Shown: piece after piece, positions 17,837 to 64,000 of the stretch | How the letters are laid out: every line of letters begins with the position of its first letter | Position numbering within the stretch: the stretch's first letter is position 1 | DNA from: Vitis vinifera | Lineage: Eukaryota; Streptophyta; Magnoliopsida; Vitales; Vitaceae | NCBI RefSeq assembly: GCF_030704535.1 | Contig: NC_081819.1 | Location: 19,998,001-20,062,000, forward strand | DNA length: 64,000 bases | Direction: 5' to 3' | Position numbers and translations under genes: made by a program | Notes under the pieces: model-generated | Databases searched by the model: none | The model's input: the letters and a program-made list of their open reading frames with translations, nothing else | Told to the model about the DNA's origin: nothing

Positions 17837-18113
17837 TCTTTATTCAAATCGGAAATTTTTTACTCACATAATCATATCCCACGTGGCACTAGAAAATAAT
17901 TTATGAAAGTATCTGAAAAAGGGGTGACGTATCATGAAATCCAAACATTTTTTGAAACTAGAAGTTGTTAAATTCTGTGACAAAATTATTTAAAAATATT
18001 TTCTGCCATTTTCCTCTCTTCCAAACGGAATATTGAAAAAAGATATCATTTTTGCCTCTATCTCTCACTTACAAGGCCAAAACTTCACTGTGATTTAGTA
18101 GAGAGAGAGAGTG

Positions 18114-21100
18114 ATGAACGACCTCTCAAATGCTTCTTCAATCCAGAGCCATTGCTACAGTTGCAAGCCAATTCCATCGCAAGTTCTCTATGTTCTGGTG
18201 CCTCTCTTCTTCACCGGCTTGGCGGTCTCAATCTTCATCCTCATTGCTGTTCACAATGCCTTCTTATTCGTCTCTCTCCTCTGTCTCTCAGCTCTCGTCG
18301 CTGCTTTTCTCATCTGGAACACCGTCAACTGGAGGCGGAGCAGAGCGCTCTTTTGCTATCTCCGTTCTTTCCCCGACTCCGACCTCCGCCTCGCTCGTCA
18401 CGGCCAGCTCGTTAAAATTACCGGGGTAATACGCATTTCTTATTATCGTCAGTCGATTCTGTTTGTTGGGTTTTGGTTTTTTGTGCGTTTGGGTAGTGGG
18501 ATTGTGAAATGAGAAATGGGAAGTTGGATTTTGGGGGGTGTGGTTCTTGGAGTTCTACTTTTGGCGAAAATGGGAAATTTCAATTCAAGAAGTAAAATAT
18601 TTTTGGGTCGAAATTAAAATTTCAGTTATTTTTTAGGGTTTTGATGATGAACAATTTTGGGTTTGAAGATTTTAATTTCTATGCTTTTTCCGCATTTTTG
18701 TGGACTTCTAAAATCGGGTGAATTGTGGAGCTATTTTGATTTTTGATGTGAATTGCTACTGGGACTGTATAGTTTCTTTTTTTAGTAGAATTAGAAGATA
18801 GATTGTATTGGTAATGAGAAATGAGCAATGCAGCATTGATTCTCTAGGTTTACAGTAGGGTTTGTTGTTGGGTATAATGAGAGGAAAGAAAATAAAATGC
18901 TTTGCTTTCAAATCGTTGATTGCAAGAAAAGTGTTAAGGCTAATTACTGGGGAAACCCCACCAATGTGGGTAGTTGGGAAAGGGTGGATTGCAAAGCAAC
19001 CAAAAATGGGTGGAAGAGGTCATTTTCGGCTCTTGATGCAGCATTGGATTGGTCTAGGGTTTCAAAATTATCTCTGGGGAACCTTTATGCTTGCAAATGG
19101 GTGTTTTGGAATTTTTAACAAAGGAAGAAACTGGCCAAAAGTGACAACATCTTATGGTTGTTGTGAAAAACAGTCTATTCAAGCAACCATAATTTTGATG
19201 TAGATGGAAAGAAACAACACAGATCAACTAACCCCGGGTTAGGACCTTATGTTACATAATCAACCTGTGTCTGGAAGGGCAGCTAAATAGTATGAGCACC
19301 ATAAAACAAAATTGGCATGGTGGTGAGGAGGGAGTGATAGGGTGTGAAGAAGGGGGGAAAGCTTGAACCAGAGGAAGGCAGGAAAGTAGGTTGCTGGAGG
19401 GGAAGGTAATGGTCTTCCAGGCCTCTTGAACAAAAGCTTGCAAACTTGCAAGATTCAATATATGCCATGAGGAAAGTTTAGAAAAGAAAAGGAAAAAAAA
19501 ATAAAGAAAGGACGAAGGAAGGGGGAGCCTTCCCTAATTTTCTAAAGCAAGACCCTAACCGGGGATAGGGTCTTTTGCTTTAGAGGGAAGGATACAACCT
19601 TAGAAGTTCAAAGAATGTATAATCCTTACAGTAATGATGTAAATCTATGGGGAGAAGTTTTAATCTGCTTAAGTTGTCATGTACCGAACATATAGCAAAA
19701 TGACATACACATTACTTGGCTAAAAATGAAAACTTTTCCTGAAAAAGAAGTGCTCATGGCAGGAAGTGGACAAAAATTACTAACATATGAAACCTAAGCT
19801 AGATCACTTGCTTAGGCCAATCAAAGTCTGCTGTATGCATAAATAGGAAAAAGGATACTTTCTATTTATTGGTCAAGTTTGTGCAAATTTCTTCAAATGA
19901 AAATTTTGACATTGCAAACTTGAGAGTTTGAAATTTAAATGGTGTTGACAGTTATAATTTCATTTCTTCTTGATCATGAACTAATAGGGTATTTTTGAGA
20001 ATTAGTGAATAAGGTTTTTACTCGATCCTTGTTTATTTGGACTAAAAAATCTTTGGGTGATGGATGTTTCTCTTAGCCATATCATTGATAGTTTTGGTTC
20101 TTGCTCCCCCCCTCCTGTTCCAAGTTCATTGTGAATATTCTATTTGCACATCGGGAAGTAAAAAATAGTCCTTTTTGAACAAGAACAATCCCAATTGACT
20201 TGTATGCTTATGTCGAAGACCTGATGCAGAAATTCTATCAAATTAACTTCTGTTTAATGTAAATGATACAAGATGATCATGTATTTCAATATTTGTCCAA
20301 AGATGTAAATACCTGCATTAATCGTCATGATGCCCACTTCATTTTGCCGTATTTTTATCCATTATGTGAATTTTGCTCATGGTAGATAGTATCTGCAGTT
20401 AAGTTGATTGTGATCTAACAGCATTCTAATCTTCTGGTGATTTTCAGCTAGTATCATGTGGGAACATCTCCCTGGAATCTTCATACGAAAAGGCTACCCG
20501 ATGTATTTATACATCTACTCTTTTGTATGAATACCCAGGACTTGGTTTGAAGCTTGCAGATGCTAAAGTGCCATGCTTTGGATGGGGGTTAGCATATTGT
20601 GAGGTATGTGAATTGTATATAACAACAAAAGTAAAAATCTCAATATCTAATATATCTATGTTAAAAAGATAATGTGCTAGGGCTTTCTCTCTGGCAGAGG
20701 TTCTCCACAGACTTTTACATCACTGATAGTAAGTCGGGCATCAGAGCTTTGGTGAAAGCTGGCTCAGGCTCAAGAGTCACTCCCCTGATCGTTGAGAGCA
20801 GACTGGTAAACACCACAAGAAAATGCAGATTTCTGTCTTCTCACTTCAAGAAATGGCTAGCAGAGCGAAACATCTCAGGCCAAGCTCGTCTATTGCGTCT
20901 AGAAGAAGGGTAACTCTCTTTTTAGTTGTTTTTTCTACTTGTTTTGATATAGGTCTTTGAGGGAGCTTATAAGCTGCAGCTTGCAGGTATGTCAAGGAAG
21001 GCAGCTCCATGGCTGTAATCGGAATGTTGCATAGAGATAATGACGCATTGATGATTGTTCAACCCCCGGAGCTCCTCTCTACAGGATGCCTATGGCGAAA

Positions 21101-42190: not shown

Positions 42191-43578
42191 CTAGAGGTAT
42201 AAAATTATAGAACCTTGGGTTTGAAGCAGAGAGACTGATTCAATAGCTCCATTTCCAACAGTGGCGAGACCTCCAACTGCAGTACTGGCCTTGATCTGAT
42301 CCTCCGGTTTTTGAATCTTTCCTTCAAGCTCTGGATGGATCTTCCTCTTTAACATCCTTGTCATCAACTGCACATAAACAAACACGTATTACAGAAATTC
42401 AAAAATTCAAAAACCCAAAAAAAAAAAAAAAAAAAAAAAAAAAATGAAGAAGAAAAAGGAAAAAGAAAAAGAAGAAGAGACATTAGTATTGTAGTTGATT
42501 AAAATCACCAGAAACAAAGAAACCCAATCCCCATAATGATCATCATATCTCATTGAATCGCATAACATGAGATTATGCCTCCTAAAGTGTAGCCAAAATC
42601 TTAAACGCTTGGGCAAAAAGAGATGGTCCAAAACCAAAATGGATTTTCAGAGAGGGAGTTAGCAATTCTACTCACTTGGTGCAGTTTCTTTATGGGGCGT
42701 GAGTCCTCTCCGACTCGAGGGATGAGCTTCTTGGCAAAGGAGAGGCCGTTCTTGGAGCGAGGTGCTGGTTTTTTGCCGGAATCAACCTTGAGTCCCTCAG
42801 GATCAACCTTAGCTCTAACCTCAGAATCAGCTGAGAACAAGTCAGCCAGTGTGGTCCTCTCTCCTTTGCTCTTCCTCTGATCATTCTCGGTGGTGAAAGA
42901 CTCTATGCCCACTTCATGAGAAGACCCCACAAAACGAGAGAGTGGAACTCCATCAACTGTCATTATGGGAATAGGCTTTGGAACATTGTCTCCAAATGCT
43001 GAGAAAACCAATGGGTTCACCTCAGTTTCATCTTCCTCATCTTCATCTTCAACCTCTCCATTCTCATTGTTCAGAGAATAAACCTCCTCTTCTTCCTCAT
43101 CTTCTCCTTCTTCTTCATCTGTCATAGCACATTCCTTCTCAGAACTGAAAGAGTAGAGCGGATCATCAAACCCCAAAGTCCCAATAGCCAAAATGCCATC
43201 TTTCCAACCATCAAGCATGTCCACAAGTGCAACATGCTTCAGCAAAGCTTGTGTATCAGTATCATTGGTGATCGACTCCACCTTCTTCAGATTTGCAGCA
43301 AGGCCATCTTCCAAAACCCACAAAACAAACCCCCCAAAAAATTCAATTTCTGTAAGGAAAATGTGTAACTTCACGTAAAAAAATGTGGGTGGATCAGGAA
43401 ACAGACCTTTTTGGAGAGAAATTGGCGTGGAATGGACATTGTGATTGAACCTCCGGTGAACCCAATTGAAGATCTGTGAAACAAACACAAAAATAACATT
43501 AAATTTACATAGAGACTCGTGAGGATTACTAGCAGAGCCGGAGAATTAAAGCCGAAAACCCAGAAGACCAACCTTCAT
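42191..43578 (-). CDS. TAC1: TAC1 (TILLER ANGLE CONTROL 1), IGT family (4 coding exons)
   Basis: The exons on the minus strand are 43578-43573, 43473-43407, 43307-42676 and 42367-42191, with GT-AG borders and matching phases, giving 293 residues. The first coding exon holds only Met-Lys. Exon 2 continues with IFNWVHRRF, the conserved N-terminal motif of TAC1/LAZY proteins. Exon 3 contains DTQALLKHVALVDMLDGW and the family signature GILAIGTLGFD (IGT at residues 66-68). A long acidic Glu/Asp tract and a basic region (KKLIPRVGEDSRPIKKLHQ) follow. Exon 4 has MLKRKIHPELEGK and ends soon after. The C-terminal EAR-like motif that marks LAZY proteins is absent, which defines TAC1. TAC1 widens branch and tiller angle in rice, peach and Arabidopsis and is thought to oppose LAZY action. 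The last residues could differ if an extra splice lies near 42210. A 28-base poly(A) run sits in intron 3. Confidence 0.88.
42417..42444. repeat. Poly(A) run in TAC1 intron 3
   Basis: Twenty-eight A bases on the plus strand, so T on the coding strand, about 50 bp upstream of the exon-4 acceptor (at 42367). A length-variable site of this kind near an acceptor could affect splicing. That effect is speculation. Confidence 0.85.
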
Positions 43579-45249: not shown

Positions 45250-47270
45250 TTTGAGTTATAGGAAGTCTAGCATTGATCATCTAAGGGTGTTTGGTTGTAT
45301 AACATATGCTCATATGCCCTTTGCATTTCGAAAGAAACTTAATGATAAAGGTGAGAGCATATTTTATTGGTTATTGTTGAGTGACAAAAGACTATAAATT
45401 ATATAACCTACAAACTAAGAGTGTTATTGTCAATCATAATGTGATTTTTTATGAGACAATAATATGATATCAGGTGTTAGTATTAATCTTGAAGAGCAAA
45501 ATTAAGACCAAAATGTACAATCCACTAGTACTCCAATTATAACTGTGTTTTGAAAAATCATCAGCGCGTCCATGTGTTTTACTTGTAGGTTTACAAGATT
45601 ATGTTGTTGGTGATAACAATGATTCAATATATGAAGAATTGATGAATTTTGTTTCATTTGACGATGTAATCCATTGAGTTGTGAGAAAGTTGTTTGTGAT
45701 GATTGTTGGCTTAAAGTTATGAATGAAAAAATCCATACAATTGAAAAGAAATATATAAAATCATATCAATCTTCTTAATTCTAAGAAGTTGATTGATGTT
45801 AAATAGGTTTACAAACCAAGTATAAGCTAAATAGAGAAGTTGATCCTTTCAAGGCAAGATTGGAAGCCAAGGGTTATAAGCAAAACCTTTATATTGATTA
45901 TTTTGAAGTATTTGTACATGTTATAAAACTTGACATTATTTGCATGATTTCTCTTACTATACAAGCATTTTTTTTTATGCATGTCAAATCAACTTTCTTA
46001 AATGGTGAACTAGAAGAGGAGGTTTATATTGAGTAACTTGCAAAGTACGTGAAAAAAAAAGAAACAAAATTCGCTTCTATAAACTAGAAAAGATTTTGTG
46101 TGGATTGAAACAAGTGTCAAAAATATGATGCATTGATATTTATTTTGTTAATAATAGATTTCAAAGATGTGCTTATGAGCCTACTTTATATCTCAAAACT
46201 ATTTTGTAAGGTGACCTCCTTATAGTGTGTTGTATTTATATGTGGATGATTTAATTATTCCTGCTAATAATTTGAGATAATTAAAAAATTTAAAAGAGTT
46301 ATGATTAGTCATTTTGAGATGCTAAATGTAGGATTAATGTCTTATTTTTTTTTTGTAATTAAAGTAATTCAATTAGATAATAGTATCATTATTATTTTTT
46401 AGAAGAAGTATGCAAGTGATGTTCTTCAAAAAATTAAAAATGAAAGTTTGTAAACCTATTTTAACACCAATTGAAGAAATTTTGAAATTAATTAAAGAAA
46501 AGCTCACATGAGTTTATTTATCCTACAAATTTGTGAAGAATTAAGGGTTGGGAGTTTACGGTTATTTTAACTTCTATAAGACCAAATATTATGTATGAAG
46601 TAGAACTTGTAAGGAGATTTAAGGATTCTCTATGTTAGTCTTGCTTGCAAACAGTATGTTTTATCATATGATACATTAAAGGTCATAAAGTTGAAGTGAT
46701 TTTTGATATATCCATGTGCAAATAAAATGAAGCTTGATAGATACACAAAAAGTGATTGAGTGGGTAATGAATTGGATAGATGATACATAGAGGCAAAAAA
46801 ATAATTCGAACTATGCATTTAATATTGTTCAAGAGATTTTTTTTGGTTGTCAAAGAAGGAACAAACAATTATTTTGTTAACAATAAAAGTTGAGTATATT
46901 GTAATTACTAGTTGTGCTAATCAAATAGACTGCTTTTTTATTTGAAATATACTCAAAAAGTTCCTATAAACATTTTTTGAGATAACAAATTATCAATCAC
47001 ATTGATCAAGGATCCGATATTTTATAGAAAAAGTAAATACATTGATTTTAAATTTCACTATATTCATGAGAAGGATCTAATATTTTATAGAAAAAGTAAA
47101 TACATTGATTTCAAATTTCACTATCTTCATGAGGTGATGAAAGACAAAGAAATTACGTCCCTATCTTTAAAAAAATCCCACTTAATTAAATTCATTCATT
47201 TAATTCACAATGAAGTTTATTTCATTTTTAAGAATTTTAAATTACTAGCTTATATCTTATAACTTATAAG
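45250..47270 (+). mobile_element. Ty1/copia retrotransposon pol fossil
   Basis: Translated pieces in order match copia pol: the integrase C-terminal part (RVFGCIAYAHMPF near 45290), reverse transcriptase (FKARLEAKGYKQ and TFLNGELEEEVY, about 45860-46030), and the RNase H region with the final SKYIDFKFHYIHE-type segment (about 46700-47130). Gag, protease and clear LTRs were not recognised. The element is heavily broken, with many breaks, and is old. Confidence 0.8.
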
Positions 47271-49834: not shown

Positions 49835-50640
49835 TGGAAAGAGTCAAATACGATGCAACATCTGCTTCCTAAGCCATGGTCTAGATGAAGTGAATTCCTC
49901 ATAGGAGTTGACCTAGCCATCCTAATCCTTTAAGAACCAATGCCGCCACAATCTTAATTTATACCTTCATCATTGCCCTTGTTACTCTCATTGAACTATA
50001 CATATACAATGCACATGCCCTCTATGATCAAGAAGACAACTGCTTAGATGTATATTACATTGTAGACGTTGTCCAGAAGATCACTTGTGTTACGAAGGCC
50101 ACAGGCACCCCACGTAGCAATCAGAGGAATTAATATTATAAAGGAATGTGAATGGGAAGAGATAGATGGATAGATTGGTCTATCCTCTTAAATTATCTAA
50201 GGGAAAAAAAGGGAAGACTTTATACAGCAGTTTGGACCCACTTTAAAGCTTGATATTATCAATATTATCAAGCTTATGTGCCAAGTCCGGTGGATGAAGG
50301 AGATATCCCATTAGCTCATTTAAAGTTTGAGGATGTAGTGGGATCCATGTCCATAAAAAACACAGGGAAGATCAACTGTGGGATCCATGTCCATAAAAAA
50401 CACAGGGAAGATCAACTGTGTTTACTGCTGTTTAGTATGGAATGTGGAGCCTTGGACCTCTTCCGGGCCTCCGGCCCTCACTTTTAAGGGCACGTGAGCC
50501 TTGAAACCATCCACTGGCATTCGATAATTGGAGTATCTTTTGGAAAATTTTGCACTCTAGTTATATTCTGTTTTTCATAATTCAGAAACATGTCAGGCGA
50601 GTGATACACTTGAAACCCTAATTTTTATATATTAGAGAAA
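49835..50640 (-). repeat. Orphan upstream segment of the proline-rich gene duplication (unit 0)
   Basis: This matches the regions upstream of genes A and B, for example ACATCTGCTTCCTAAGCCAT, CAGTTTGG.CCACTTTAAAGC, GATGAAGGAGATATCC and GGAGCCTTGGACCTC, in the same order and orientation as 57200-57760. The gene itself, expected to the left, is missing and the homology stops at about 49835. It is a truncated extra copy of the duplicated block. Confidence 0.75.
50341..50420. repeat. Exact 40-bp tandem duplication
   Basis: The 40 bp at 50341-50380 (starting GGATCCATGTCCATAAAAAA) are repeated without a mismatch at 50381-50420. The related unit B sequence near 57511 has a single copy, so this duplication arose after the blocks separated. 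Confidence 0.95.
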
Positions 50641-52059
50641 AATAATTGATTAAAAAAAATGGAATACTTAATCGTCTCATTTAAAAATTAATTGATATTT
50701 AGGAAACATAGATAAAACTTTTTATAATATTCGATATCATACCTTGTAAGTCTATTTTAAGAGTTATCATTTGAGTGATCTATTTTCGAACTTAAAATTA
50801 ATATTACTACATCTTAATAACAATGAATTTGAAATTTTTGTTCAATGCAAATTAAAATAAGCTACACTTTTTCAATATCATTAAAGTATTCTTGTGATCC
50901 AATCGAATCCAAAGTTATTTTAATTTTAAATGATAAAAGGCACAATATATTTGAAATTTCAAATTCTTTTATATTAATATTTAGTACTACTTGTACTTCA
51001 TTTACTTTGTGAAAACCTAGTGAATTATTGGGGGGAAAAAGGTGGACATGACAATTGAGAAAGAAAAGTGAACTCGCTTAATAAGCTTTGAAGTGCTTTT
51101 TATTTTAAAAATACATTGAACCAAGTGTCACTCATCTCAGTTTCTTGCTAGAGAACAGCTTCGTATCCCTAAGAGATGCCAGCTCTTCCATTACAAACCC
51201 CCATCTATATAATCCAAATTGATTCTCTTTTTGTCTAACTCAATTCTTCTCTTCATTCATGGTTGCATGAGTAATGATTGGGCTCCGATTCTCCTTGTTA
51301 TTTCAATGAAAAAACAAAGCATTTAGGTGATATTTGGAGACACCTTATATTTTTAATTTTTAAAAATAAAAATTTATATATAAAATCTATGAACTTTAAT
51401 ATAATTTTATATAAAGAACTACTAAACTCAATTACTTATTTTCGTCACTTTTAAGTTTTTTATCGAAGTCTATTATTTTGTAAAGGTTTTTAAAATGAAT
51501 CAGTGATGGATTTCTAGGTTTCACAATAATAATAATAATTTACCTTGTATTCATTATTTTTTTTTCAAAATTTTTAAAAATGGGAAAAGTGAAAATTTTT
51601 ACTTCATTAAAAAAATTTTGAAAAGTGTTTTCAAATATGCCTATATTTTTTTTTATAATAATTCCTTCATTTGTATAAGATTTTCTATTTTAAAAAAACA
51701 AAAAATAGGAAATCTATCCAAGTAGTTGCTCAGATTTTTTCTAATGCAATGCAAATTGTTAATTTTCTTATGTTATTTAGTGAAGTCAAAATCACAAATA
51801 ATAATAATAATAATAAAACACCCAACCCCAGGTCCCCAACTTGAAAGTGGAAGTTTTGTGGTGAGTCAGTCTGTCTTCTAGCGAGTGAGGCCCAGCTTGA
51901 AGGAACCTTTCTTTAACTTGGGCCAAACCCTGGCACAATGATCAAAACTTGGACCAGAAACTTGATCTTAGTTACCCAAACAGAACAACCAATGGGCCAA
52001 GGTGACCAAAGACAATCAGATTGTGAATTGCATGATATGGTTAAACTTCTAATAAATTA

Positions 52060-52099
<40 letters not shown>

Positions 52100-52830
52100 T
52101 TGTTAGCTTATAGGATAACACATTGGCTGAAATAACTTTTCATTTTTTTTTTTTTTTGACTAATTGAAGCTGAAGTCAATTTCCTACTTAATACATTTAG
52201 GATCTGTCAGGGACAATTTCTAATTTTGAGTGGGAAAGTGAAACCAAAGTCAAAAATATAATTTCCAAAAGATAATATTATTATTATAAAAGTTTTATTA
52301 AATATGAAATAGGTTTTTTTATAAATCCGAATAAAGTTTTTACGATAAATAATATTTTTTTAGCTTTTATATTAAGATCTTTTTCAATTTATGATTTCTT
52401 TTATAAAAATTAGTCAAATAGAGTCTATTTAAAGAAAGTTCTTGATTTTTAATTTGATAGATAAAATAGTATGAAGTTGTCAATATTAACTATTTTTATG
52501 AATTAAACTTTTTTTTTTTTCTCCGGCAGCAACTGCTCCTCAAGGGAAGCCCACACTTCATAAGCTGTCTCAACACCCATCAAGTTTAGGACATCTTCCT
52601 TCTCCTTGTCATCTTTTAATTTTTTCAATGGGTTTTTTCTCCATTTAATGAATGATGGAGAACATCACGACTACGAACTAAAGGAGTGATTCGGTTGTAC
52701 CACAATAGAGAGTTGGTAGTCCTCAATTTGATAGAAATCAAGCTAGAACATTGGTGAAAGGATTGAATGTTTAATTCGGGTTATGTTTGTGGGGTGGAGG
52801 ATGAAAGCATGTTTAAAGACATTTTTCTCG
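50641..52830. other. Spacer within the duplicated region, no gene seen
   Basis: AT-rich. 51,990-52,290 is similar to 54,655-54,950 (GGGCCAAGGTGACCAAAGAC, then TTGTGAATTGCATG, then a shared AAGTCAAA..ATAATT stretch), so duplicated sequence extends here too. It contains (AAT)n runs. Confidence 0.5.
52060..52098. repeat. (AAT)n microsatellite
   Basis: About 13 ATA/AAT triplets in a row. A shorter run of the same motif lies at 51798-51816. Confidence 0.9.
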
Positions 52831-53096
52831 GCTTGCAAGTGCTAATTGCACCTTTTATTTCTTCCCTATTCAACATTAACTCACTCTTACAGACACATAA
52901 ATATTCAAATGAGGGCAAGGGTCACCATTCCATCCGAAGATCTGGAACACAACCATGGAAGATCAGAACCCACGCCCTTTTATCATTACAAGTACTCCCT
53001 TTTATTTATTCTCTTACATACATATCCTTTATATAATGTAAGAATTTTGAAAATGAAAAAGCTTAATTCATTTTATGCATGCAGGCTGTTTGATCT

Positions 53097-53930
53097 CTAG
53101 TTATTTTGCCCATCTCCAGAGTCCTTGAGATGCAGTCCACGGCCACCACCACCAGAGAAGAAAACATGGACACCAGGATCGTGGTGGGTGAGAGAGGTGT
53201 TGAAGAGAATGGAGTTGTTAATGGCTTGTACATTGCTGTTCACGAATGCACTCATGGGTGGTGAGGGGGTCCCCATTTTGTTTTCAGTTTTGTCCATCTT
53301 TTTCGATTTCTCTTCGTAGTTGCTACTGGTATCGCTTCCTAATTTGTTTGAGCTGGCGAGGCTTAGCTCCATTATGGCTCCTTTATTGTCACCTGCAACC
53401 GTTATGACCTCCATGCTAGCATCCTCAGAGTCTGCTTTCTTGTGATTACCTTTGTGGTCTTTGGACTCCATGTCCTTGGTCAGCTCACGCTTTTCGTAGT
53501 TGGGGGAAATGCTTGGCTTTGCAGTGTCGCCCAGTACACCATTGGAGAGCTTGAATGGTGGGTTGGGCTTTTGCAGAATCTTCTGTTCAATCGGCTCATG
53601 AGTGGATTTTGCGCGGGCAGGAGGCAGAGTCAGAGCAGATGGGGGAGGAGAAGGTAGTTTGATTTTCTCAGGAGGTGTGGTTTTCCGACTCGGATTAGAT
53701 GGAACAGATGAAACATTCCCAACCCAGAAAGGTGGAGCTGCAGTAGCAGCAGTCAGTGGTTGTGGTGGAGGCCGGGTTGTAGGCCTAAATGCCTGACCAA
53801 ATGTTGGTCGAAAAATAGGTCGACGAGGGGCAGGAAGTTGAGGTTGAGCCTCAGGCGCTGGGGGTGGAGCTACTGGCCTCACAGAACCTAGGATGGGCCA
53901 TGGGCGAGATGGGAGAGGCTGGTTTGCCAT
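53097..53930 (-). CDS. Proline-rich tandem family protein, copy A
   Basis: Single exon, 277 residues, with the ATG at 53930 shared with the other copies. The N terminus MANQPLPSRPWPILGS and the motif PIFRPTFGQAF are conserved in all four copies. Residues up to about 120 are proline/glutamine/alanine-rich, the middle is charged (Lys/Asp/Glu-rich), and the C terminus has NSNVQAINNSILFN, HDPGVHVFFS and GRGLHLKD. There is no signal peptide or membrane segment, and the composition predicts disorder. I do not recognise the family. Compared with B it lacks a short segment in the middle and has KILQKPNPPF where the others have a longer stretch. An AATAAA-type signal lies at 53010-53001 and a TATA box at 54040-54033. 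Whether it is expressed cannot be told here. Confidence 0.75.
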   Translation of the reverse strand: MANQPLPSRPWPILGSVRPVAPPPAPEAQPQLPAPRRPIFRPTFGQAFRPTTRPPPQPLTAATAAPPFWVGNVSSVPSNPSRKTTPPEKIKLPSPPPSALTLPPARAKSTHEPIEQKILQKPNPPFKLSNGVLGDTAKPSISPNYEKRELTKDMESKDHKGNHKKADSEDASMEVITVAGDNKGAIMELSLASSNKLGSDTSSNYEEKSKKMDKTENKMGTPSPPMSAFVNSNVQAINNSILFNTSLTHHDPGVHVFFSGGGGRGLHLKDSGDGQNN

Positions 53931-54032
53931 AATCCAACAGAATTAATCCTAAGCAGGTCGCCCAAAGACTTAACCTGAACAAGAGGCCAAGGAATGGGCA
54001 CAGAAAATAAGTTCGATGAACTTGGTATTTAC

Positions 54033-54040
54033 TATTTATA
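54033..54040 (-). promoter_or_regulatory. TATA box of proline-rich copy A
   Basis: TATAAATA on the minus strand, about 103 bp before the ATG. The same motif in the same context (CTTATAAATA..) precedes copies B (57082-57075), C (60326-60319) and D (63522-63515). Confidence 0.7.
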
Positions 54041-55023
54041 AGTTCAACACCCTAGAAAAAGAAAAATGCAGATCACATCTAAAATCCTAATACAAGTGCT
54101 CAAAAGAGTCAAAATACATGGGCAACCATATGGAGACAGAAAGAGTATCGTACGGAGTGTCCTCTTGAGATTGACCACATGTTAGTCAAATATGATCGAT
54201 GAAACATCTGCTTCCTCAGCAATGGTCTAGAAGAAGTGAGTTCCTCATAGGAGTTGTTGGCTTTAGAGATATTAATGATCCTTTTGAGAATCAATTAATG
54301 CCACCACAATCATTATTCATGCATTGCCCTTGTTTCTCTGATTGAATCTTGCATGCAAATACAATGCACAGCAGTTCACCACTCCACAAAAGGGCACCAA
54401 ATCAACCTATACATGATGCGGGAACGAGAATATCGGCGCGCACAGAATAATAGAAAAGATGTTGTACGATCTAATTGGGTTGTCCAAATTCGTTATCAGA
54501 ATCATAGTACAATGGTGGATAGGAGAATATGGTTTTGTACTGCAAAAACAAAATAAAATAACCATTCCTTACAGCATAAATGACCCTTTCCAAACTTTAA
54601 AGCTTGATGCTATTAGCTTATAATATTTCAAGTCCAATCAATGTAGGAGGTCTACCCTATTGGCCCCTAATGGGCCATGGTGACCAAAGAGACTGAGATT
54701 GTGAATTGCATGCTAATTCACTTAGAATATAGTTCAATTTCTAATAACTTTTTTTTAAAATAAAATTGAAGTTGTTAGGTGATAATAGGATAAACGACAT
54801 TTGGAATAACATTTTTTTTTATTAGATATTCTCTTAGTGATAATTTCTTGTTTTTAACTTTGACCAGGAAGGAAGTGAAGCCAAAGTCAAACTTATAATT
54901 CTCAAAGGACAATATTGTTGTCGTAAAAATTTTATTTATAAAAATAGTTTTATCAAGTTGTTTTAATAGATGAATATTTCTATGAAATAAAGCTTTAACA
55001 TTATATTCAACTATAAATTAAAC

Positions 55024-55089
55024 GGTCTTATAATGTTATGTAAATTGACTAGCATTGGTCTTATAATGTTATGTAAATTGACTAGCATT
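55024..55089. repeat. Exact 33-bp tandem duplication
   Basis: The 33-bp unit starting GGTCTTATAATGTTATGTAA at 55024 repeats exactly from 55057. Confidence 0.95.
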
Positions 55090-55154
55090 TAACTATTGTA
55101 AGCCATGTGATAAATGGACGGGAGTAATAGAGTTGAGCGTATGGAAGTATATTT

Positions 55155-55280
55155 AGAACTTGTTTGAGAATTGTTCTAAAAAGTACTTTTACCTTTTTTA
55201 ATACTTGAAAATTTTTATCATTTAAATGTTAAAAAAATTTAAAAACATTTTCTAAAATTGTGTTGTTAAACACACTCTTA
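55155..55280. mobile_element. Possible MITE, about 126 bp
   Basis: The left part AGAACTTGTTTGAGAATTGT and the right part ending TGTTAAACACACTCTTA are loosely inverse. The core, with ATACTTGAAAATTTTTATCA, resembles the foldback MITE at 8703-8821. It is weaker than that copy. Confidence 0.45.
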
Positions 55281-56076
55281 GCTAATGGACCTGATATCCA
55301 AAGCAAAATCACCTAAGAATTTCAAGACTGCTAAATTAACATATGGATGCATAGCTTAATTATCAGATCTCCTTTATGTGCCCTTCAAAATTATTAAAGG
55401 CTACTAAACCAAACACCAGCATATAGAAATAATTAAATCTTGTTAAATTCTCATACGTAGAACCCAATTGGGCTAGAAATTAAATTAATTTCCAGTTGGT
55501 TTAAGTCAAGTTTGAATGCTTGCTTAGTTTGAATGAAGCCAAGGGAAGCCCAAGCCTGGCCCGAATTCAATGCAATACATGAAGGCCGACTGTTTACATG
55601 CCTAATTAGAGGTGCTTTTAGAGTAAATAAGAATTATAGCACATATCAACTGCTGTAAACAAACAAAGAGATTCAGAAGGTCAAAGAAAAATAATTTCGA
55701 ATTTCGTATTAATAGGTGAAAAATGACAGCATACACTGTAAGGCTAGTTCTCATCCCTCACAAGGTGATCAAATTGCAACTCATACACTCGATACTAATA
55801 CAAATCAAATGCAAATTGCATCTTTTATTAATTTCTTCCCCAGTCTCCATCACCTCACTCTTACAAACACATAAATATTCAAATGAGGGCATATATGGGT
55901 CACCATCTTAGGTTACATTCCATCCGAAGATCTGGAACACAACCATGGAGAATCAGAACCCATGTCGTTTTCTCCTTATCAGTTGCTTTTAATTATTCTC
56001 TCACTTATATAATGTAAGGATTTTGAAAATGAAAAAGCTTAATTAATTTTGTGCATGCAAGCTGTTTGTTATATCT

Positions 56077-56979
56077 CTAGTTATTTTGCCCATCACCATG
56101 AGAGAAGAAAACACGGACGCCAGGATCATGGCTGGTGCAAGAGGTGTTGAAGAGAATGGAGTTGTTAACGGCTTGAACATTGCTGTTCATAAATGCATTC
56201 ATGGGTGATGAGGGGGTCCCCATTTTGTTTTGAATTTTCTCCATCCTTTCTGACTCCTCTTTGACGCTGCTACTGTCGTCGCTTCCTAATTTGCTGCCCC
56301 ACGAAGTTTTGGGGTTGGTCTTGATGAGTGTGTTGGAGTCTCCTTCGGGGTCGTGTTTCTTGCTGGCGAGGCTTAGCTCCATTATAGCTCCCTTGTTGTC
56401 TCCTACAATTGTTATAATCTTCATGCTGTCGTCCTTAGAGTGTGCTTTCTTATGATTACCTTTGTGGTCTCCGGTCTCCATGTCCTTGGTCTTCTCACGC
56501 TTCTCGTAGTCAGGGACAAAGCTTGGCTTCGCAGTGTCGCCCACGTCCTTTTGCAGTCCACCATTGGAGGGCTTGAGTGGCGGGATGGGCTTTCCGATGA
56601 GCATGGTCTTCTGCTCAATCGGCTCAGGAGTGAATTTTACGTGGGCAGGAGGCATAGTTAGAGGAGATGGGGGAGGAGCAGGCGTTTTGATTTTCTCAGA
56701 AGGAAGTGTGGTTTTCTCACTCGGATAAGATGGAACTGATGAAATATTCCCAACCCGGAAAACTGGAGCTGCAGTAGCAGCAGGCGGTGGTGGTGGTGGC
56801 GGCTGCTGAGGCTGGGTTGAAGGCTTAAATGCCTGACCAAATGTGGGTCGAAAAATAGGACGAGGGGCAGGAGGTTGAGCCTGAGGCTGAGGCTGAGCAT
56901 CAGGCGCTGGGGGTGGGGCTACCGGCCTCATGGAACCCAGGATGAACCATGGCCGAGATGGGAGAGGCTGGTTTGCCAT
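56077..56979 (-). CDS. Proline-rich tandem family protein, copy B
   Basis: Single exon, 300 residues, the longest copy. It has the conserved N terminus (MANQPLPSRPWFILGS, PIFRPTFGQAF), a proline-rich first half with PPPPPPPAAT, a lysine-rich middle (DHKGNHKKAHSKDDSMK, GDNKGAIMELSLASKKHDP), and a segment absent from C and D (LIKTNPKTSWGSKLGSDDSS onwards, about residues 205-250). The C terminus has NSNVQAVNNSILFN and HDPGVRVFFSHGDGQNN. It lacks the GGGRGLHLKD block that the other copies carry just before the end. No targeting signal was seen. TATAAATA lies about 96 bp before the ATG. Function is unknown to me. Confidence 0.75.
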   Translation of the reverse strand: MANQPLPSRPWFILGSMRPVAPPPAPDAQPQPQAQPPAPRPIFRPTFGQAFKPSTQPQQPPPPPPPAATAAPVFRVGNISSVPSYPSEKTTLPSEKIKTPAPPPSPLTMPPAHVKFTPEPIEQKTMLIGKPIPPLKPSNGGLQKDVGDTAKPSFVPDYEKREKTKDMETGDHKGNHKKAHSKDDSMKIITIVGDNKGAIMELSLASKKHDPEGDSNTLIKTNPKTSWGSKLGSDDSSSVKEESERMEKIQNKMGTPSSPMNAFMNSNVQAVNNSILFNTSCTSHDPGVRVFFSHGDGQNN

Positions 56980-57074
56980 AATCGAACTGGATCAATCTGA
57001 AGCAAGTCGCCCAAATACTTAACTTGAACAAGAGACCGAAGCACAGGCACAGAAAATAAGTTTGAGGAACTTGG

Positions 57075-57082
57075 TATTTATA
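57075..57082 (-). promoter_or_regulatory. TATA box of proline-rich copy B
   Basis: TATAAATA on the minus strand about 96 bp upstream of the ATG, conserved with copies A, C and D. Confidence 0.7.
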
Positions 57083-57839
57083 AGTTCAACACCCAAAAAA
57101 AAAAAAAAAAATTGCAGAACACAAAATCCTAATACCAGTGCTGAAAACACATGGGCAACTATGTGCAGACAGAAATAGTATCGCACGGAATGTCCTCAAA
57201 TATGATGAAACATCTGCTTCCTAAGCCATGTTCTAGAAGTGAATTCAATTTAGGAGTTGACTTAGCCATGTTCATGATCCTTAATTTTGAGCGTCGGCCA
57301 ATGCGAGAATCCTTATTCATTCATTGCTCTGGTTACTCTTATTGAACTATGCAAATGCAATGCATATCATCAAGAACCATCTAAGGGAAAAGCAAGACTT
57401 TAAAGAGCAGTTTGGGTCCACTTTAAAGCTTGATACTATTAGCTTATGTTTCAAGTCCAGTGGATGAAGGAGATATCCTATTGGCTCCTTTGTAGTTTTG
57501 GATTTTAGTGGGATCCATGCCCCCGTTAAAAGCGCAGGGATCGAAGTAGATCAACTGTACTGTCTACGACTGTTTACTGTGGAATATGGAGCCTTGGACC
57601 TCTCCCTCACTTTTAAGGCCCTGAACCTTAAAACCATCCATTGGGACTGGATAATTAGAATAGATTTTGGAAAATTTTACACTAAAATATCCCATTTTTC
57701 ATAAATTAGAAACATGCCAGATCTTGTGATGATACTTAAAACCCTAGTTTTTATATGTTTAAAATAGCAATGGAGAATCAAATACAACGTTTTAAAAATG
57801 TTTAAATGGAATTCTAGAATGTGAGCTCTGATTCCTAAG

Positions 57840-58850
57840 GGTCTGTTTGGTTGCTATTTTTGAAAATTATTTTGAAAAACAGTTTTTGAGAATAATTTTT
57901 TTTGTTTTCAGAAAAAAAATCTGTGTTTGAAAATTGAATTTTGGAAAACAATTTTTGTTCTCAAAAACAAAAAAATCATGTTTGGTTGGGTTAATAAAAA
58001 AGTTTTTTAGAATAAGTAAAATAAAAAACATGTTTGAAAGTTGTTTTTTTTTTTAAATTGAATGTTTTTTCGTAACTCCTCTCGATTAATAAAAAAATAT
58101 ATAAATAAAATAAATTCAACAAAAGATAATAATAATTGGTTTTGTTTTTAGAATTGAGTATTTTCTTTAACTAATTGATATTGTAAATATATAAATAATT
58201 TTTACATTCACACAAAAAAAAATTGGTTGTTTGATTTACTTTGTGTTTTTTTTTTTGTTATTCTTTTTTCTTTTTCTTTTTTGTTCCAGTTGTTTGTTTC
58301 TTTAATATTGTTTTAGGTATGGTCTTGTTTGGTTGTTGAAAAAACTTGAGGGAGGGAGAATTTTGAGGTTTCTGTTATTGGTTGTGTGGAAAAATAAATG
58401 ATGAGGAGTTGTTGTGTTCTCTCGGATCCTAACAGGGATAATCTTCCTTGTTTCATACCCATAAAAGGAAAAATAAAAGAGGTGCATGTCTGGAGAGAAG
58501 AGAGAGCAAAATGCAAAAAAAAAAGGGAAAAGTTCATGCAATCTCCAATGGATAACAGTTTCTCCACACCAGAGCAGCACATCCGTTTGAACTGAAGAGT
58601 GAAAGAATCCGTGAAGGCCAAAACCAGCCATGAAAAAGAAGAGATTAGGGCGAAAACACGGAGAACATCCCATTTTTTCTTGTTATTTGAATAGTGTAAA
58701 AAACAACAAAAACATCTTTAAAATGTTCTCTAAAATCAGGGTATTTGAAAACACAGAAAACAACTTAATACTCCTTGGCCAAACTAGTTTTCAGTGTTTT
58801 TTTGTTCCCGAGAATAGAAAACAGTTTTTAAAAACATCAACCAAATCTTT
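57840..58850. mobile_element. Non-autonomous TIR element, about 1 kb
   Basis: The left end is GGGTCTGTTTGGTTGCTATT followed by TTTGAAAA and CAGTTTTTGAGAA. The reverse complement of the right end is ATTTGGTTGATGTTTTTAAA followed by AACTGTTTTC. The inverted arms are long but imperfect. There is no transposase. It is inserted in the B-C spacer and abuts a copia RT fragment on its right. Confidence 0.45.
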
Positions 58851-58985
58851 GAAAGCAAAGTCCTTTCTTAGATGAGAGACCAACTTATTGATCAGCTGTG
58901 GATTATTTCCGATGAGAATAACATCATCTAAATAAACAAAGAGTATTAAGTATGTTAGTGTTACGCTTATAAGTACAAAAAAAAA
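58845..58985 (-). mobile_element. Copia reverse-transcriptase fragment (fossil)
   Basis: The minus-strand translation gives FVYLDDVILIGNNPQLINKL and LRKDFAFKDL, the YxDD region of Ty1/copia reverse transcriptase. It is only a short piece of an element, with no LTRs or other domains, and is clearly a broken relic between units B and C. Confidence 0.75.
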
Positions 58986-59377
58986 TATCAGCCCTGCTGC
59001 ATGAAAAACCAATAGTATTAATGAGTGAAAAATAACAGCATACATATTCCAAGGCTAGCTCTCATCCCTCAGATGGGGATCAAATTGCAACACATACATT
59101 CAACATTAATACAAATAAAGTACCTTTTATTCCTTCCCCATTCGCTATCAAATCACTCTTACAAACACATAAAATGAGGGCATGAGTTACCGTCTTGGGT
59201 TGCATTCCATCTGAAGATCTGGAACACAACCATGGAGAATCAGAACCCATGCCGTATTCTCATTACCAGTCACAGCTTTTATTTATTCCCTTACATATAC
59301 ATTCTTCGTATAATGTAAGAATTTTGAAAATGAAAAAGCTTAATTAATTTTATGCATGCATGCAAGCTGTTTGATCT

Positions 59378-60214
59378 CTAGTTATTCTGCTCCTCTCCAA
59401 TGTCCTTGGGATGTAGTCCACGGCCACCACCACGAGAGAAGAAAACATGGACAACAGGATCGTGGCTGGTGCAAGAGGTGTTGACAAGCATGGAGTTGTT
59501 AACGGCTTGAACATTGCTGTTCATAAATACATGCACGAGTGGTGATGGGGTCGCCATTGTGTTGGAGTTGCCTTGGGGGTCGTGTTTCTTGCTGGCGGGG
59601 TTGAGCTTCATTATAGCTCCCTTGTTGTTCCCTGAAATTGTTATGATCTTCATGCCGTTATCCCTAGAGTGTGCTTTCTTGTGATTACCTTTGTGGTCTT
59701 TGCTCTCCATGTCCTTGGTCTTCTCAAGCTTCTCGTAGTCAGGGACACTGCTTGGCTTCGCAGTGTCACCCACATCCTTTTGCAGTCCACCATTGGATGG
59801 CTTGAATGGTGGGTTGGGCTTTTCGATGAGCATGGTCTTCTGCTCAATCGGCTCAGGAGTGGATTTTACGTGGGCAGAAGGCAGAGTTAGGGCAGATGGG
59901 GGAGGAGAAGGTGGTTTGATTTTCTCAGAGGGAGGTGTGGTTTTCTGACTCGCATAAGATGGAACCGATGAAACATTTCCAACCTGGAAAGGTGGCGCTG
60001 CAGTAGCAGCAGTCTGTGGTTGTGGTGGCAGCTGTTGAGGCTGGGTTGAAGACTTAAGTGCTTGACCAAATGTAGGTCGAAAAATAGGACGAGGGACAGG
60101 AGGTTGAGGTTGAGGTTGAGCCTGAGGCTGAGCCTCGGGCGCTGGGGGTGGGGCTACTGGCCTCAGGGAACCCAGAATGAGCCATTGGCGAGATGGGAGG
60201 GGCTGGTTTGCCAT
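59378..60214 (-). CDS. Proline-rich tandem family protein, copy C
   Basis: Single exon, 278 residues. The N terminus is MANQPLPSRQWLILGS, then an AQPQ-rich run and PIFRPTFGQAL. The middle has EPIEQKTMLIEKPNPPFKPS and DHKGNHKKAHSRDNGMKIIT. In place of the B-specific segment it reads KKHDPQGNSNTMATPSPLVH, an in-frame deletion shared with D. The C terminus has NSNVQAVNNSMLVN, HDPVVHVFFSRGGGRGLHPK and EEQNN. No signal peptide or membrane segment. TATAAATA lies about 105 bp before the ATG. It may be functional since the frame is open, but no known domain is visible. Confidence 0.72.
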   Translation of the reverse strand: MANQPLPSRQWLILGSLRPVAPPPAPEAQPQAQPQPQPPVPRPIFRPTFGQALKSSTQPQQLPPQPQTAATAAPPFQVGNVSSVPSYASQKTTPPSEKIKPPSPPPSALTLPSAHVKSTPEPIEQKTMLIEKPNPPFKPSNGGLQKDVGDTAKPSSVPDYEKLEKTKDMESKDHKGNHKKAHSRDNGMKIITISGNNKGAIMKLNPASKKHDPQGNSNTMATPSPLVHVFMNSNVQAVNNSMLVNTSCTSHDPVVHVFFSRGGGRGLHPKDIGEEQNN

Positions 60215-60318
60215 GATCCAACAGAATTAATCTGAAGCAAGTCGCCTAAGGAACCCAAATGCTCAACCTGAACAAGAGACCAAGGAATGGGCACAGAAAA
60301 TAAGTTTCAAGAACTCGG

Positions 60319-60326
60319 TATTTATA
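60319..60326 (-). promoter_or_regulatory. TATA box of proline-rich copy C
   Basis: TATAAATA on the minus strand about 105 bp upstream of the ATG, in the conserved context. Confidence 0.7.
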
Positions 60327-60859
60327 AGTCCAACACCCAGAAAAAGAGAAAAAGCAGAACACATAAAATTCTAATACTAGTGCTCAAAACGCATAAACAA
60401 CTATATGCAGATAGAAGGGTATCGTACGGAATGTTCTCTTGAGATTGACCATACCATGAAAGTACATCTGCTTCCTAAGCCAGTCTAGAAGCAGGGAATT
60501 CCCTGTAGGAGTTGACTCAGCGATCATGACACATTGCCCTCGTTACTCTTTTTGAGCCATCAACACATGACGCGGGAATGAGAAGCTTCTTTGGAATTTG
60601 CGTGCCCAAAAGTGATGATGTTTCAAATGTCGCGAAGAGGCATTCAGGGTATTTCATTTCTATCCTCTGTAGAGTAAGGGAAAATATTAGATTGGGAGTT
60701 TTTTTTTTTTTTTTTTCTTTTCTAGAAGTCATTTTGTTCTTTCCTCCTTGTGTTTTGCAGAAAACATGTCGGGATGCAGAATAATAGAATGGATGTTATA
60801 GGATCTGATCGGGTTGTCCAAATTCGTGATCAGAGTCATAGTAGAATGTTGGATGAGAT

Positions 60860-62120
60860 ATTAATAGATACATCAGTAATTCAACTTTATTAATATATCA
60901 GGATATATTAAAAAATATTAGTAGATATTTTAACTTAAAATATCGATAATATAAAAATTAATGAAAATTATAAAAATATTAAAAACAACTCTAAAAGATT
61001 ATATAAGAAGTAAAAATAAACATTTTTTTGGCAAAAATTGATATATGTAATTTGTCATATTTAATGATAATAGCGTTTATGTTGATAAAAAATATAAATT
61101 TTATAAATTTATATTTATTATTAAGTTACATTATATATTATTTTATAATAATATTATGATAATATGGATAATTTTAAAATATATTTACTATTAAAATTAT
61201 AATTTTTTGATTTTAAGATCGGGAGGAATTATTAAGTAAAAATAATTCTTTAATTACATCATGTTCTTGAATTATTTTATTATTTGTCATATTTTACTTG
61301 TAACTATTTACATCCTACGTAGATATTATCTACTTTTAATCCAAAAAAACCTTTACAACTTTAAAATGCATTCATATCGTTAAGAGGAGAAAATAGACAC
61401 CCTTTATGGGGCTAAACAAATCCCTACTCAGAATCAAGGATTGGTTTTGATAGCATTTATAATAATCTACACTTAATTGTATAAATATTGTCTACTTTGA
61501 ATCCAAAAGAGTTTTCATAGTTTTAAAATATGTCTTCATATAAGTTAAAAGGAACTCATATTTATATACCACAAAAAATTTTCTCTTATATTCAATATGA
61601 GATATCATATTACTTTCTCATGAGTTTGTTCTTTGAGTGTGCAGATATTACAAAAGTTGAAATTCATTACATAAGGAAAGCTTTATTTTGGTTTGAGTCA
61701 AGTTTTTTTTTTTTAGAGTTATGAAAGGCCTTGTTGTAACTATTTATTTTGTCATAATATTGCTAAAGGGGATATTGTTGATATATCAGGGTTAGGTGAT
61801 AATTTTATTTCATTTCTTACTAATTATATACTATATACTTTTGTGGGTCTTATCGTTATCAATTTAACTTAAGATTTTATCAAACTTGACTTGTACATAT
61901 TCAAAATCACCAATGTTGACATAAGTAGGCATTTATGTTTAATAAAGATTATAGAATGGCTAACACATGAAAATGAGATAGAAATTTCAACTGCAAAATA
62001 AAAAAGTTAATAATGGTCGGGACAACAATCAAATGATATGAGGAAGTTCAAACGTCTTCAAGGAGTTCAAATGCCCATATTCAGACGTCCCTTATGGGTG
62101 TTCAAACGTTTGGTCTTCCC
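60860..62120. other. Spacer between units C and D, repeat-derived
   Basis: AT-rich with no gene. At 61319-61390 and 61485-61555 two related stretches share ATATT.TCTACTTT.AATCCAAA and TTTAAAATG.. motifs followed by a purine-rich ..GGAG/GGAAC. Their pattern (a TTTAAAA core after a 'tctactttgaatcc' block) resembles plant LTR/TRIM terminal sequences, here degenerate. Confidence 0.35.
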
Positions 62121-62579
62121 ATTTACATGTCTAATTGAAGGTTCATGTAGAGTTCAAAACGGCCCAAAACAAAGGCATGCAAGCACCCAATAATTATATA
62201 TAGCGCATATCACTTGCTGTAAAGATACAAAGAAATTAAAAAAATGAGGGGTAAAAAACAACTTCAAATTTAGTATTAATGTGTGAAAACTGACAGCATA
62301 CGGTACAAGGGGATCAAATTCAAACCGTACACTCAATACTAATACAAAACAAGTGCAAACTACAACTTTTATTTCTTCCCCCATTCACCATCAACTCACT
62401 CATACAAACACATAAATATTCAAATCAGGACATGGATCACCAACATAGGTTACATGCCATCTGAATATCTGGAACACAAACGTGGAGAATCAGAACCCGG
62501 GCCTTTTTCTCATCACCAGTCACTTTTATTTATTCTCTTACATATACATCCTTAATTAATTTTATGCATGCAAGCTGTT

Positions 62580-63419
62580 TTATTTTTGCCCATCTCCATA
62601 GTCTTTGAGATGCAGTCCACGGCCACCACCACGAGAGAAAAAAACATGGACACCAGGCTCGTGGTTGGTGCAAGAGGCGTTCACGAGAATGGAGTTGTTA
62701 ACGGCTTGAACATTGCTATTCATAAATATATTCAAGAGTGGTGATGGGGTCGCCATTGTGTTGGAGTTGCCTTGGGGATCGTGTTTCTTGCTGGCGGGGT
62801 TGAGCTCCATTATAGCTCCCTTGTTGTCTCCTGCAATTGTTGTGATCTTCATGCTGTTATCCTTAGAGTGCGCTTTCTTGTGATTACCTTCGTGGTCTTT
62901 GCTCTCCATGTCCTTGGTCTTCTCAATCTTCTCGTAGTCAAGGACTCTGCTTGGATTCACAGTGTCGCCCACATCCTTTTGCAGTCCACCATTGGATGGC
63001 TTGAATGGTGGATTGGGCTTTTCGATGGTCATGGTCTTCTGCTCAATTGGCTCAGGAGTGGATTTTACGTAAGCAGGAGGCAGAGTTAGAGCTCATGGGG
63101 GAGGAGAAGTTGGTTTGATTTTCTCAGAAGGAGGTGTGGTTTTCTGACTCGGATTAGATGGAACCGATGAAACATTCCCAACCCGGAAAGGTGGAGCTGC
63201 AGTAGCAGCAGTGGGTGGTTGTGGCGGAGGCTGCTGAGGCTGGGTTGTAGGCCTAAATGCCTGACCAAATGTGGGTCGAAAAATAGGACGAGGGACAGGA
63301 GGTTGAGGTTGAGCCTGAGGCTGAGCTTGTGATGCTGCCGCAGGTGCTGGAGGTGTGGCGACTGGCCTCATGGAACCCAGGATGAGCCATGGGCGAGAAG
63401 GGGGAGGCTGGTTTGCCAT
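62580..63419 (-). pseudogene. Proline-rich tandem family, copy D, with internal stop
   Basis: The frame matches copies A-C over its whole length, but an in-frame TGA at 63092-63090 follows KIKPTSPPP, where copy C continues with SALTLP. That leaves a 108-residue N-terminal ORF (63419-63093) and a downstream part (63032-62580). The downstream part carries GGLQKDVGDT, DHEGNHKKAHSKDNSMKITT, the C-type deletion junction (GNSNTMATPSPL) and the C-terminal HEPGVHVFFSRGGGRGLHLK. The very end differs: an extra A gives GQK and a stop instead of GQNN. The TATA box and 3' flank are retained. It is either a young pseudogene or an allele with a single nonsense change. The N-terminal ORF could still give a short proline-rich peptide. 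Confidence 0.75.
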
Positions 63420-63514
63420 AATCCAATAGAATCAATCTGAAGCAAGTAGCCCAAATACTTAACCTGAACAAGAGATCAAGGAATTGGCACAGAAAATAAG
63501 TTTCAGGAACTCGG

Positions 63515-63522
63515 TATTTATA
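63515..63522 (-). promoter_or_regulatory. TATA box of copy D
   Basis: TATAAATA on the minus strand about 96 bp upstream of the ATG, conserved although the gene carries a stop. Confidence 0.65.
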
Positions 63523-63529
63523 AGTTCTG

Positions 63530-64000
63530 CACCCCTCAAAAAAAATGCAAAACATATCTAGAACTCCAATAGTACTAGTGCTCAAAACACATGGGAAACT
63601 ATATGCAGCCGGAGAGAGGAAATAAGAACAAAAAAAAAAAGCATCCGATTCAGGAGATTGCACCCTCGTATGGGTTTCGATCTTCTGGATTGTTTAAGGA
63701 GAGTTGGCCTCCTTTTTGGGTTTCATACGGAATGTCCTCTTGAGAATATGGATCACATGCATGTGAATGTGATCAAACATCTCACCTCTTCTTCCTATAT
63801 GGTCTAGATGGAGTGAATTCCTTAGCAGGAGTTGACTTAGCCCATCATGTCCTACATTCATTCATTGCCCTGGTTACTCTCTTTGAACCATGCAAGTACA
63901 ATGCATATCATCAATATCCATCCAAGGGAAATGCAAGACTTCATACAGCAGTTTGGATCCACTTTAAAGCTTGATACTGTTAGCTTAATTTTCAAGGCCG
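63530..64000 (-). repeat. Upstream block of unit D, running off the window
   Basis: Matches the upstream blocks of units 0, A, B and C (CATACGGAATGTCCTCTTGA, GAGTGAATTCCTTAGCAGGA, CAGTTTGGATCCACTTTAAA). A segment at about 63610-63725 is not present in the other units and looks like a small insertion. The array may continue past 64000. Confidence 0.6.

Follow-up and report, generated by a model that had tools for sequence, protein, structure and literature searches.

The stretch analysed here, called the window, is 64,000 nucleotides of the grapevine genome (C15:19998001-20062000; 495,616,077 bp in 21 contigs), and it carries an array of four homologous single reading frames on the minus strand (c1-c4; Table 1). 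An initial annotation, made from the sequence alone, had described them as four intronless copies of a proline-rich, probably disordered protein gene. Three are intact, but c4, although it keeps its frame, is split by an in-frame TGA into parts of 108 and 150 amino acids (aa). The proposed spacing of 3.0-3.3 kb was confirmed: the start codons lie 3049, 3235 and 3205 bp apart, and tblastn matches between the copies were far past chance (E 1e-78 to 2e-125), with protein identities of 61-82%. It was also correct that each copy has its own TATA box and 3' flank, since TATAAATA was found 103-112 bp 5' of the ATG in 4/4 copies and the 3' flank could be aligned in each of them. Upstream flanks were 77-84% identical, except for the pair formed by c4 and c5, a further copy described below. 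The array had been placed at 49835..64000. The copies do lie there, but between 49835 and about 52800 there is no coding copy; what is left is distal upstream flank of a further unit, and tblastn found no coding remnant with it.

Table 1. Genes, protein-coding blocks and other features at the locus and at related loci. Plain numbers are window positions; the prefixes C and L denote contigs and further stretches.
Feature	Location	Strand	Remarks
c1	53097..53930	-	intact single-frame coding sequence, 277 aa
c2	56077..56979	-	intact single-frame coding sequence, 300 aa
c3	59378..60214	-	intact single-frame coding sequence, 278 aa
c4	62580..63419	-	frame kept, TGA at codon 109 (63093-63095)
N-terminal block of c1	53787..53930	-	MANQP...PTFGQAF
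N-terminal block of c2	56827..56979	-	
N-terminal block of c3	60056..60214	-	
N-terminal block of c4	63255..63419	-	
C-terminal module of c1	53154..53414	-	GDNKGAIM ... NSNVQAINNS ... PGVHVFFS
C-terminal module of c2	56101..56424	-	
C-terminal module of c3	59435..59653	-	
C-terminal module of c4	62634..62852	-	3' of its stop codon
TATAAATA of c1	54033..54040	-	110 bp before ATG
TATAAATA of c2	57075..57082	-	103 bp before ATG
TATAAATA of c3	60319..60326	-	112 bp before ATG
TATAAATA of c4	63515..63522	-	103 bp before ATG
Remnant of distal upstream flank	49842..50633	-	49842-50015 + 50195-50633
c5	C15:20065227-20066069		intact short copy, 280 aa
fd	C15:20098908-20100191		longer member, 427 codons, single-frame; 37 kb past window end
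Degraded fragment	L001:4888-5009	+	
Degraded fragment	L001:6152-6910	+	
Degraded fragment	L001:7675-7972	-	
Degraded fragment	L002:1790-2210	-	
C18 paralog	C18:10776316-10778400		694 aa, single open frame
C2 paralog	C2:2532190-2532666		158 aa
C7 paralog	C7:7875901-7876341 (L004:2902-3342)		146 aa
HD-Zip I gene	14990-15439		Pfam Homeodomain + HALZ
Cytochrome P450 gene	30296-32257		Pfam
IGT-type gene	42601-43545	-	motif GILAIGT near 43.2 kb
AAA ATPase gene, beyond fd	L006:9553 to L007:938		AAA_assoc + At3g28540-type lid

Some smaller features were seen in and near the array. A Copia-type reverse transcriptase fragment lies at 58794-59045 (minus strand; weakly matched by RVT_2, short of the Pfam cut-off) and another, judged by eye, at 45803-46033 (plus strand). 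Two-copy tandem duplications occur at 47008-47133 (63 bp, 93%), 50338-50420 (40 bp, 100%) and 55024-55089 (33 bp, 100%).

A search of the genome with c3 returned 18 matching stretches at E ≤0.001; a single one lay on C2, and the 17 on C15 belong to the window copies, c5, the fragments and fd. The array is not confined to the interval first assigned to it, as an intact fifth copy (c5), fragments and a longer gene, fd, continue past 64000. The cluster comprises the intact short copies c1, c2, c3 and c5, the broken c4, four degraded fragments (two of them in the orientation opposite to the array), the flank-only remnant and fd, and TATAAATA is present in 6/6 units when c5 and fd are counted with the window copies. 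The array consists of tandemly duplicated short paralogs of the longer single-frame gene fd in the same cluster. The fd protein contains five SVPTSP units that are absent from the short copies, where about 110 residues of this region are missing; in the two proteins counted, there are 13 S/T-P sites in fd and 5 in c3. An unrooted tree joined c4 with c5 (bootstrap 100), then c3 (100) and c2 (90), leaving c1 and fd at its opposite end. The divergence between c4 and c5 was tiny by the NG86 method (dS 0.013, dN 0.020), therefore the stop codon of c4 arose recently, and c5 represents the intact twin of that copy. Units arranged head to tail, among them intact, nonsense-bearing and truncated copies that differ in age, make this a tandem birth-and-death cluster, which is an ordinary genomic feature. 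Retroelement polyprotein frames were observed between the array fragments and fd, in L008 and L009 (C15:20071501-20091500); that of L008 matched RVT_1, RNase H and protease, and that of L009 was judged by eye.

Three parts make up the proteins. The N-terminal block reads MANQPxPxRPWxxLGSxRP ... RPIxRPxFGQ; it is followed by low-complexity sequence rich in proline and serine, and then by a C-terminal module of two halves, GxNxGAxM ... [YF]xNSNxQxxNNS ... PGV. The end motifs quoted in the initial annotation are not the same in every copy: PWxILGS, PIFRPTFGQAF and NSNVQAxNNSIL each occur in 3/4 copies and HDPGVHVFF in 1/4; the GxNxGAxM block is an addition to that list. The C-terminal module recurs at three unlinked paralog loci, on C2, C7 and C18 (start codons are our choice). 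A hidden Markov model of five C15 members scored 46.4 bits on the C2 paralog, 44.1 on C18 and 27.1 on C7, while the best of 3000 shuffles of these paralog proteins reached 11.9. The C2 paralog can be aligned to the C15 members over VRIITLAGSNTGATM and YVNSNFQSVNNSIMM...NDPGVHM; used as query, it matched C15, C7 (E 1e-4) and C18 (E 0.01), and the C18 module matched C15 and C2 but not C7. With c3, C2 and C18 as queries, the module is therefore present at four loci (C15, C18, C2 and C7) at least. Like the array proteins, the C18 paralog is encoded in one open frame, is proline-rich and carries the module; it begins with MAEQ (MANQ in the array) and has RSPPFAAA-type repeats of its own. The C2 and C7 paralogs share the module but have neither the N block nor a proline-rich part, and C7 differs further in a hydrophobic tail at its end, by eye like a membrane anchor.

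The view that no described family matches was upheld. Pfam gave nothing near the cut-off for c1-c5, fd or the C2, C7 and C18 paralogs, NCBIfam gave no match for c1-c3, and PDB gave none for c2 or for the C-terminal profile; the few family hits below cut-off in these searches were taken as chance. A literature search on the motif strings and on gp1-like cell-wall labels returned nothing usable. The empty database searches, together with the lack of relatives among viral contigs (query c3) and prokaryote genomes (query c2), where none would be expected for a plant gene, would suit a lineage-specific orphan family without relatives, as the wording of the initial annotation implied. We find that idea hardly credible, given that unlinked paralogs at three other loci of this genome share the C module and that the locus is syntenic with Arabidopsis At2g46630, as shown next.

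On C15 the genes run in the order HD-Zip I gene, P450 gene, IGT-type gene, array, fd, a frame without Pfam match, and AAA ATPase gene. Beyond its IGT motif, the gene near 43 kb is presumably a TAC1 gene of the branch-angle family, and we take the P450 gene to be a CYP78A, which fits grape VIT_15s0048g02900. Published sources on the neighbours, gene order and phosphosites (PMC13054138, PMC5090222, PMC9102059, PMC7286026, PMC12026657; further PMC10671646, PMC6448822, PMC5609062, PMC5895676) give the IGT family motif as G-Phi-L-(A/T)-GT, list ATHB7 as the Arabidopsis match of grape VIT_15s0048g02870 on chr 15, name VIT_15s0048g02900, also on chr 15, CYP78A3p, and assign AtTAC1, CYP78A6 and AtHB7 of Arabidopsis to At2g46640, At2g46660 and At2g46680. 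In the same sources, the order on Brassica napus A09 is At2g46620 (P-loop NTPase), At3g61870, At2g46630 and CYP78A9, and the B. napus counterpart of At2g46630, BnaA09G0560000ZS, which one source also names in its running text, spans 690 bp. At2g46630 (T3A4.1) is printed there as 'unknown protein' and is listed as "Unknown" in a table on manganese deficiency. Its phosphosites pS102-pT105-pT111 (fold change 0.5) stand among rows labelled inversion-specific in a footnote, in a Ser/Thr phosphoproteome that covers Arabidopsis membrane and cytoplasmic fractions.

The neighbourhood of the At2g46630 orthologous group is thus conserved in grapevine: from the C15 order, the published B. napus order and the Arabidopsis gene numbers, fd and the array occupy the place expected of At2g46630. 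The cluster therefore sits at the position of this gene, by gene order rather than by sequence. As with At2g46630 and BnaA09G0560000ZS, it lies between P-loop/AAA ATPase and CYP78A-type P450 genes, and TAC1, CYP78A6 and AtHB7 are numbered close by in Arabidopsis. One difference is in number, the B. napus list having one gene where grapevine has six near-full-length copies plus fragments. That an IGT-motif (TAC1-like) gene adjoins the array and that the phosphorylation of At2g46630 changes on inversion is a coincidence of location that deserves some attention.

Sequences of this composition are commonly labelled automatically as secreted hydroxyproline-rich cell-wall proteins of the extensin, arabinogalactan or proline-rich protein (PRP) class. 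Proline does make up 14.8-16.5% of the proteins, with a proline-rich N-terminal half, but the likeness ends with this composition. Across the N-terminal 46 aa of c1-c4, the best 12-residue hydropathy mean was 0.59-1.01, so that, judged by hydropathy only, none has a signal-peptide-like stretch. Hydroxyproline-rich glycoproteins (HRGPs) are recognised by repeated SPn, YXY or PPV motifs, or by a content of proline, alanine, serine and threonine (PAST) of at least 50%. The c1-c4 proteins, to which the motif counts apply, contain 0 or 1 SPPP, no YXY and 0-1 PPV each, and their PAST content is 38-40%. Membership of the HRGP, extensin, arabinogalactan protein or PRP families was accordingly disfavoured for c1-c4 on both the signal-peptide and the motif/PAST criteria. 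The positional counterpart, moreover, appears in that membrane and cytoplasmic phosphoproteome, and we regard a cell-wall function as very unlikely.

We favour, with a probability of roughly 0.45, the reading that the array consists of tandem paralogs of fd at the At2g46630 place which would encode an intracellular, disordered phosphoprotein or adaptor, the short copies being under birth-and-death. Judged by hydropathy, the short copies contain neither a signal-peptide-like nor a membrane stretch, and with a positional counterpart in the phosphoproteome an intracellular protein is likelier than a wall protein. AlphaFold2 gave a mean pLDDT (predicted local distance difference test) of 42 with a five-row alignment and of 43 for the C-terminal part, where a low-confidence strand pair was placed at the NSNVQ block. 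The disorder proposed initially is thereby suggested, if weakly, because shallow alignments also yield low pLDDT; the protein may be largely disordered. Such a protein could act as an adaptor with the N block and the C module as putative binding sites. The SVPTSP repeats of fd would then form a tether and a candidate target of proline-directed phosphorylation, and the short copies would keep both ends without this tether, through loss of the repeats or through their gain in fd. Unequal crossing-over and decay would account for the turnover of the short copies.

Several results weigh against this adaptor reading. In C7 the GxNxGAxM half of the module is weak, at 1.5 bits, the resemblance between the N-termini of fd and C18 is marginal (1% of shuffles were equally good), and the AlphaFold2 models are too poor to reveal a fold. 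The link to At2g46630 is based on gene order and not on sequence comparison, and the reported phosphorylation is that of the Arabidopsis protein, not of the array copies. The 690 bp of the B. napus counterpart allow at most ~230 codons, fewer than in any of the intact copies, and because of this short span the long form is perhaps not the ancestral one. Moreover, At2g46650 is a cytochrome b5 gene, and the cytochrome b5 motif HPGG was not found in six frames of the window. The remaining points concern selection. Pairwise ratios of nonsynonymous to synonymous substitution (dN/dS) among the four window copies were 0.39-0.64 by NG86 and 0.60-0.90 by YN00; NG86 alone would overstate constraint, and YN00 and maximum likelihood (ML) were also run. 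ML gave 0.57-0.94 for the same copies and 0.57-1.00 when c5 and fd were added, therefore constraint is weak; the young c4-c5 pair reached 2.13, on very few changes. A ratio near 1 over all copies, which the initial annotation had named together with a lack of transcripts as a refuting outcome, was thus not seen by NG86, but by ML several pairs come near it, c1-c2 having 1.00. Selection on the array copies is weak.

Constraint was also compared between blocks by permutation, with blocks picked by eye and P uncorrected for block number. In the four window copies the whole N block had a ratio of 0.29 (1.5% of 5000 random codon sets were as low), and without its PQ stretch 0.20 (19/5000). In six copies with kappa weighting, the first N block had a ratio of 0.34 (2.4% of 3000), aided by a high proportion of synonymous differences (pS), its proportion of nonsynonymous differences (pN) being unremarkable (13%). 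For the second N block pN was low (2.3%), but the ratio was not (12.5%). This N-block signal is only moderate. Neither the GDNKGA block (0.43, 29%, in four copies; 0.52, 21%, in six) nor the C block (0.51, 37%, in four; 0.88, 71%, in six) was significantly constrained, the latter being a further point against the adaptor reading, and a strongly selected C-terminal block within the array was rejected as unsupported by the permutations. The idea of conserved ends around a flexible core accordingly held moderately for the N end, but within the array no significant extra constraint was seen on the C block, although its core comes back in the C2, C7 and C18 paralogs. The in-frame indels ascribed to the middle were borne out: in c1-c4, 35/35 coding gap runs were multiples of 3, compared with 23/67 upstream and 15/49 downstream. 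Together with the moderate N-block signal, this coding constraint speaks for the adaptor reading. The gap counts are pairwise runs that share events and are not independent; distal sequence that aligned poorly is counted in the upstream set, and part of the coding gaps stem from changes in repeat length within the PQ stretch.

These data bear most on the main rival, in which fd would be the one functional gene and its short relatives mere by-products, decaying en route to pseudogenes; we hold this to be quite possible, though doubtful. It is consistent with the nonsense codon in one of the five near-full-length short copies, with the degraded state of four other stretches, with the ML ratios of the window copies and the value above 1 for c4-c5, and with upstream flanks whose identity is, by eye, about what the pooled pS of 0.19 among the window copies predicts. 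Simple decay would not readily leave every coding gap run in frame, unlike those of the flanks, nor c1, c2, c3 and c5 open over 277-300 codons at an NG86 dS of about 0.2; the N block also keeps a lower ratio, and TATAAATA is kept in all six units.

A more specific proposal, which we consider unlikely, is that the C module is an undescribed small plant domain and that the short copies serve as tether-less competitors or dosage buffers of a force-responsive phosphoprotein of the At2g46630 type. On the adaptor reading, an uncharacterised At2g46630-type gene gains a testable anatomy, consisting of the N block, an S/T-P-rich repeat tether and a C module without Pfam match, and natural copies that carry the tether lie in one cluster with others that lack it. 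Should the module prove to be a binding domain, a shared function would follow at once for all four loci of this genome.

Elsewhere in the window, a plus-strand frame at 18102-18512 had no Pfam match above cut-off; it resembles At1g16860 (SHOU4L type). The 2-kb stretch at 10001-12000 has 18% G+C and contains several degenerate T/A-rich short repeats.

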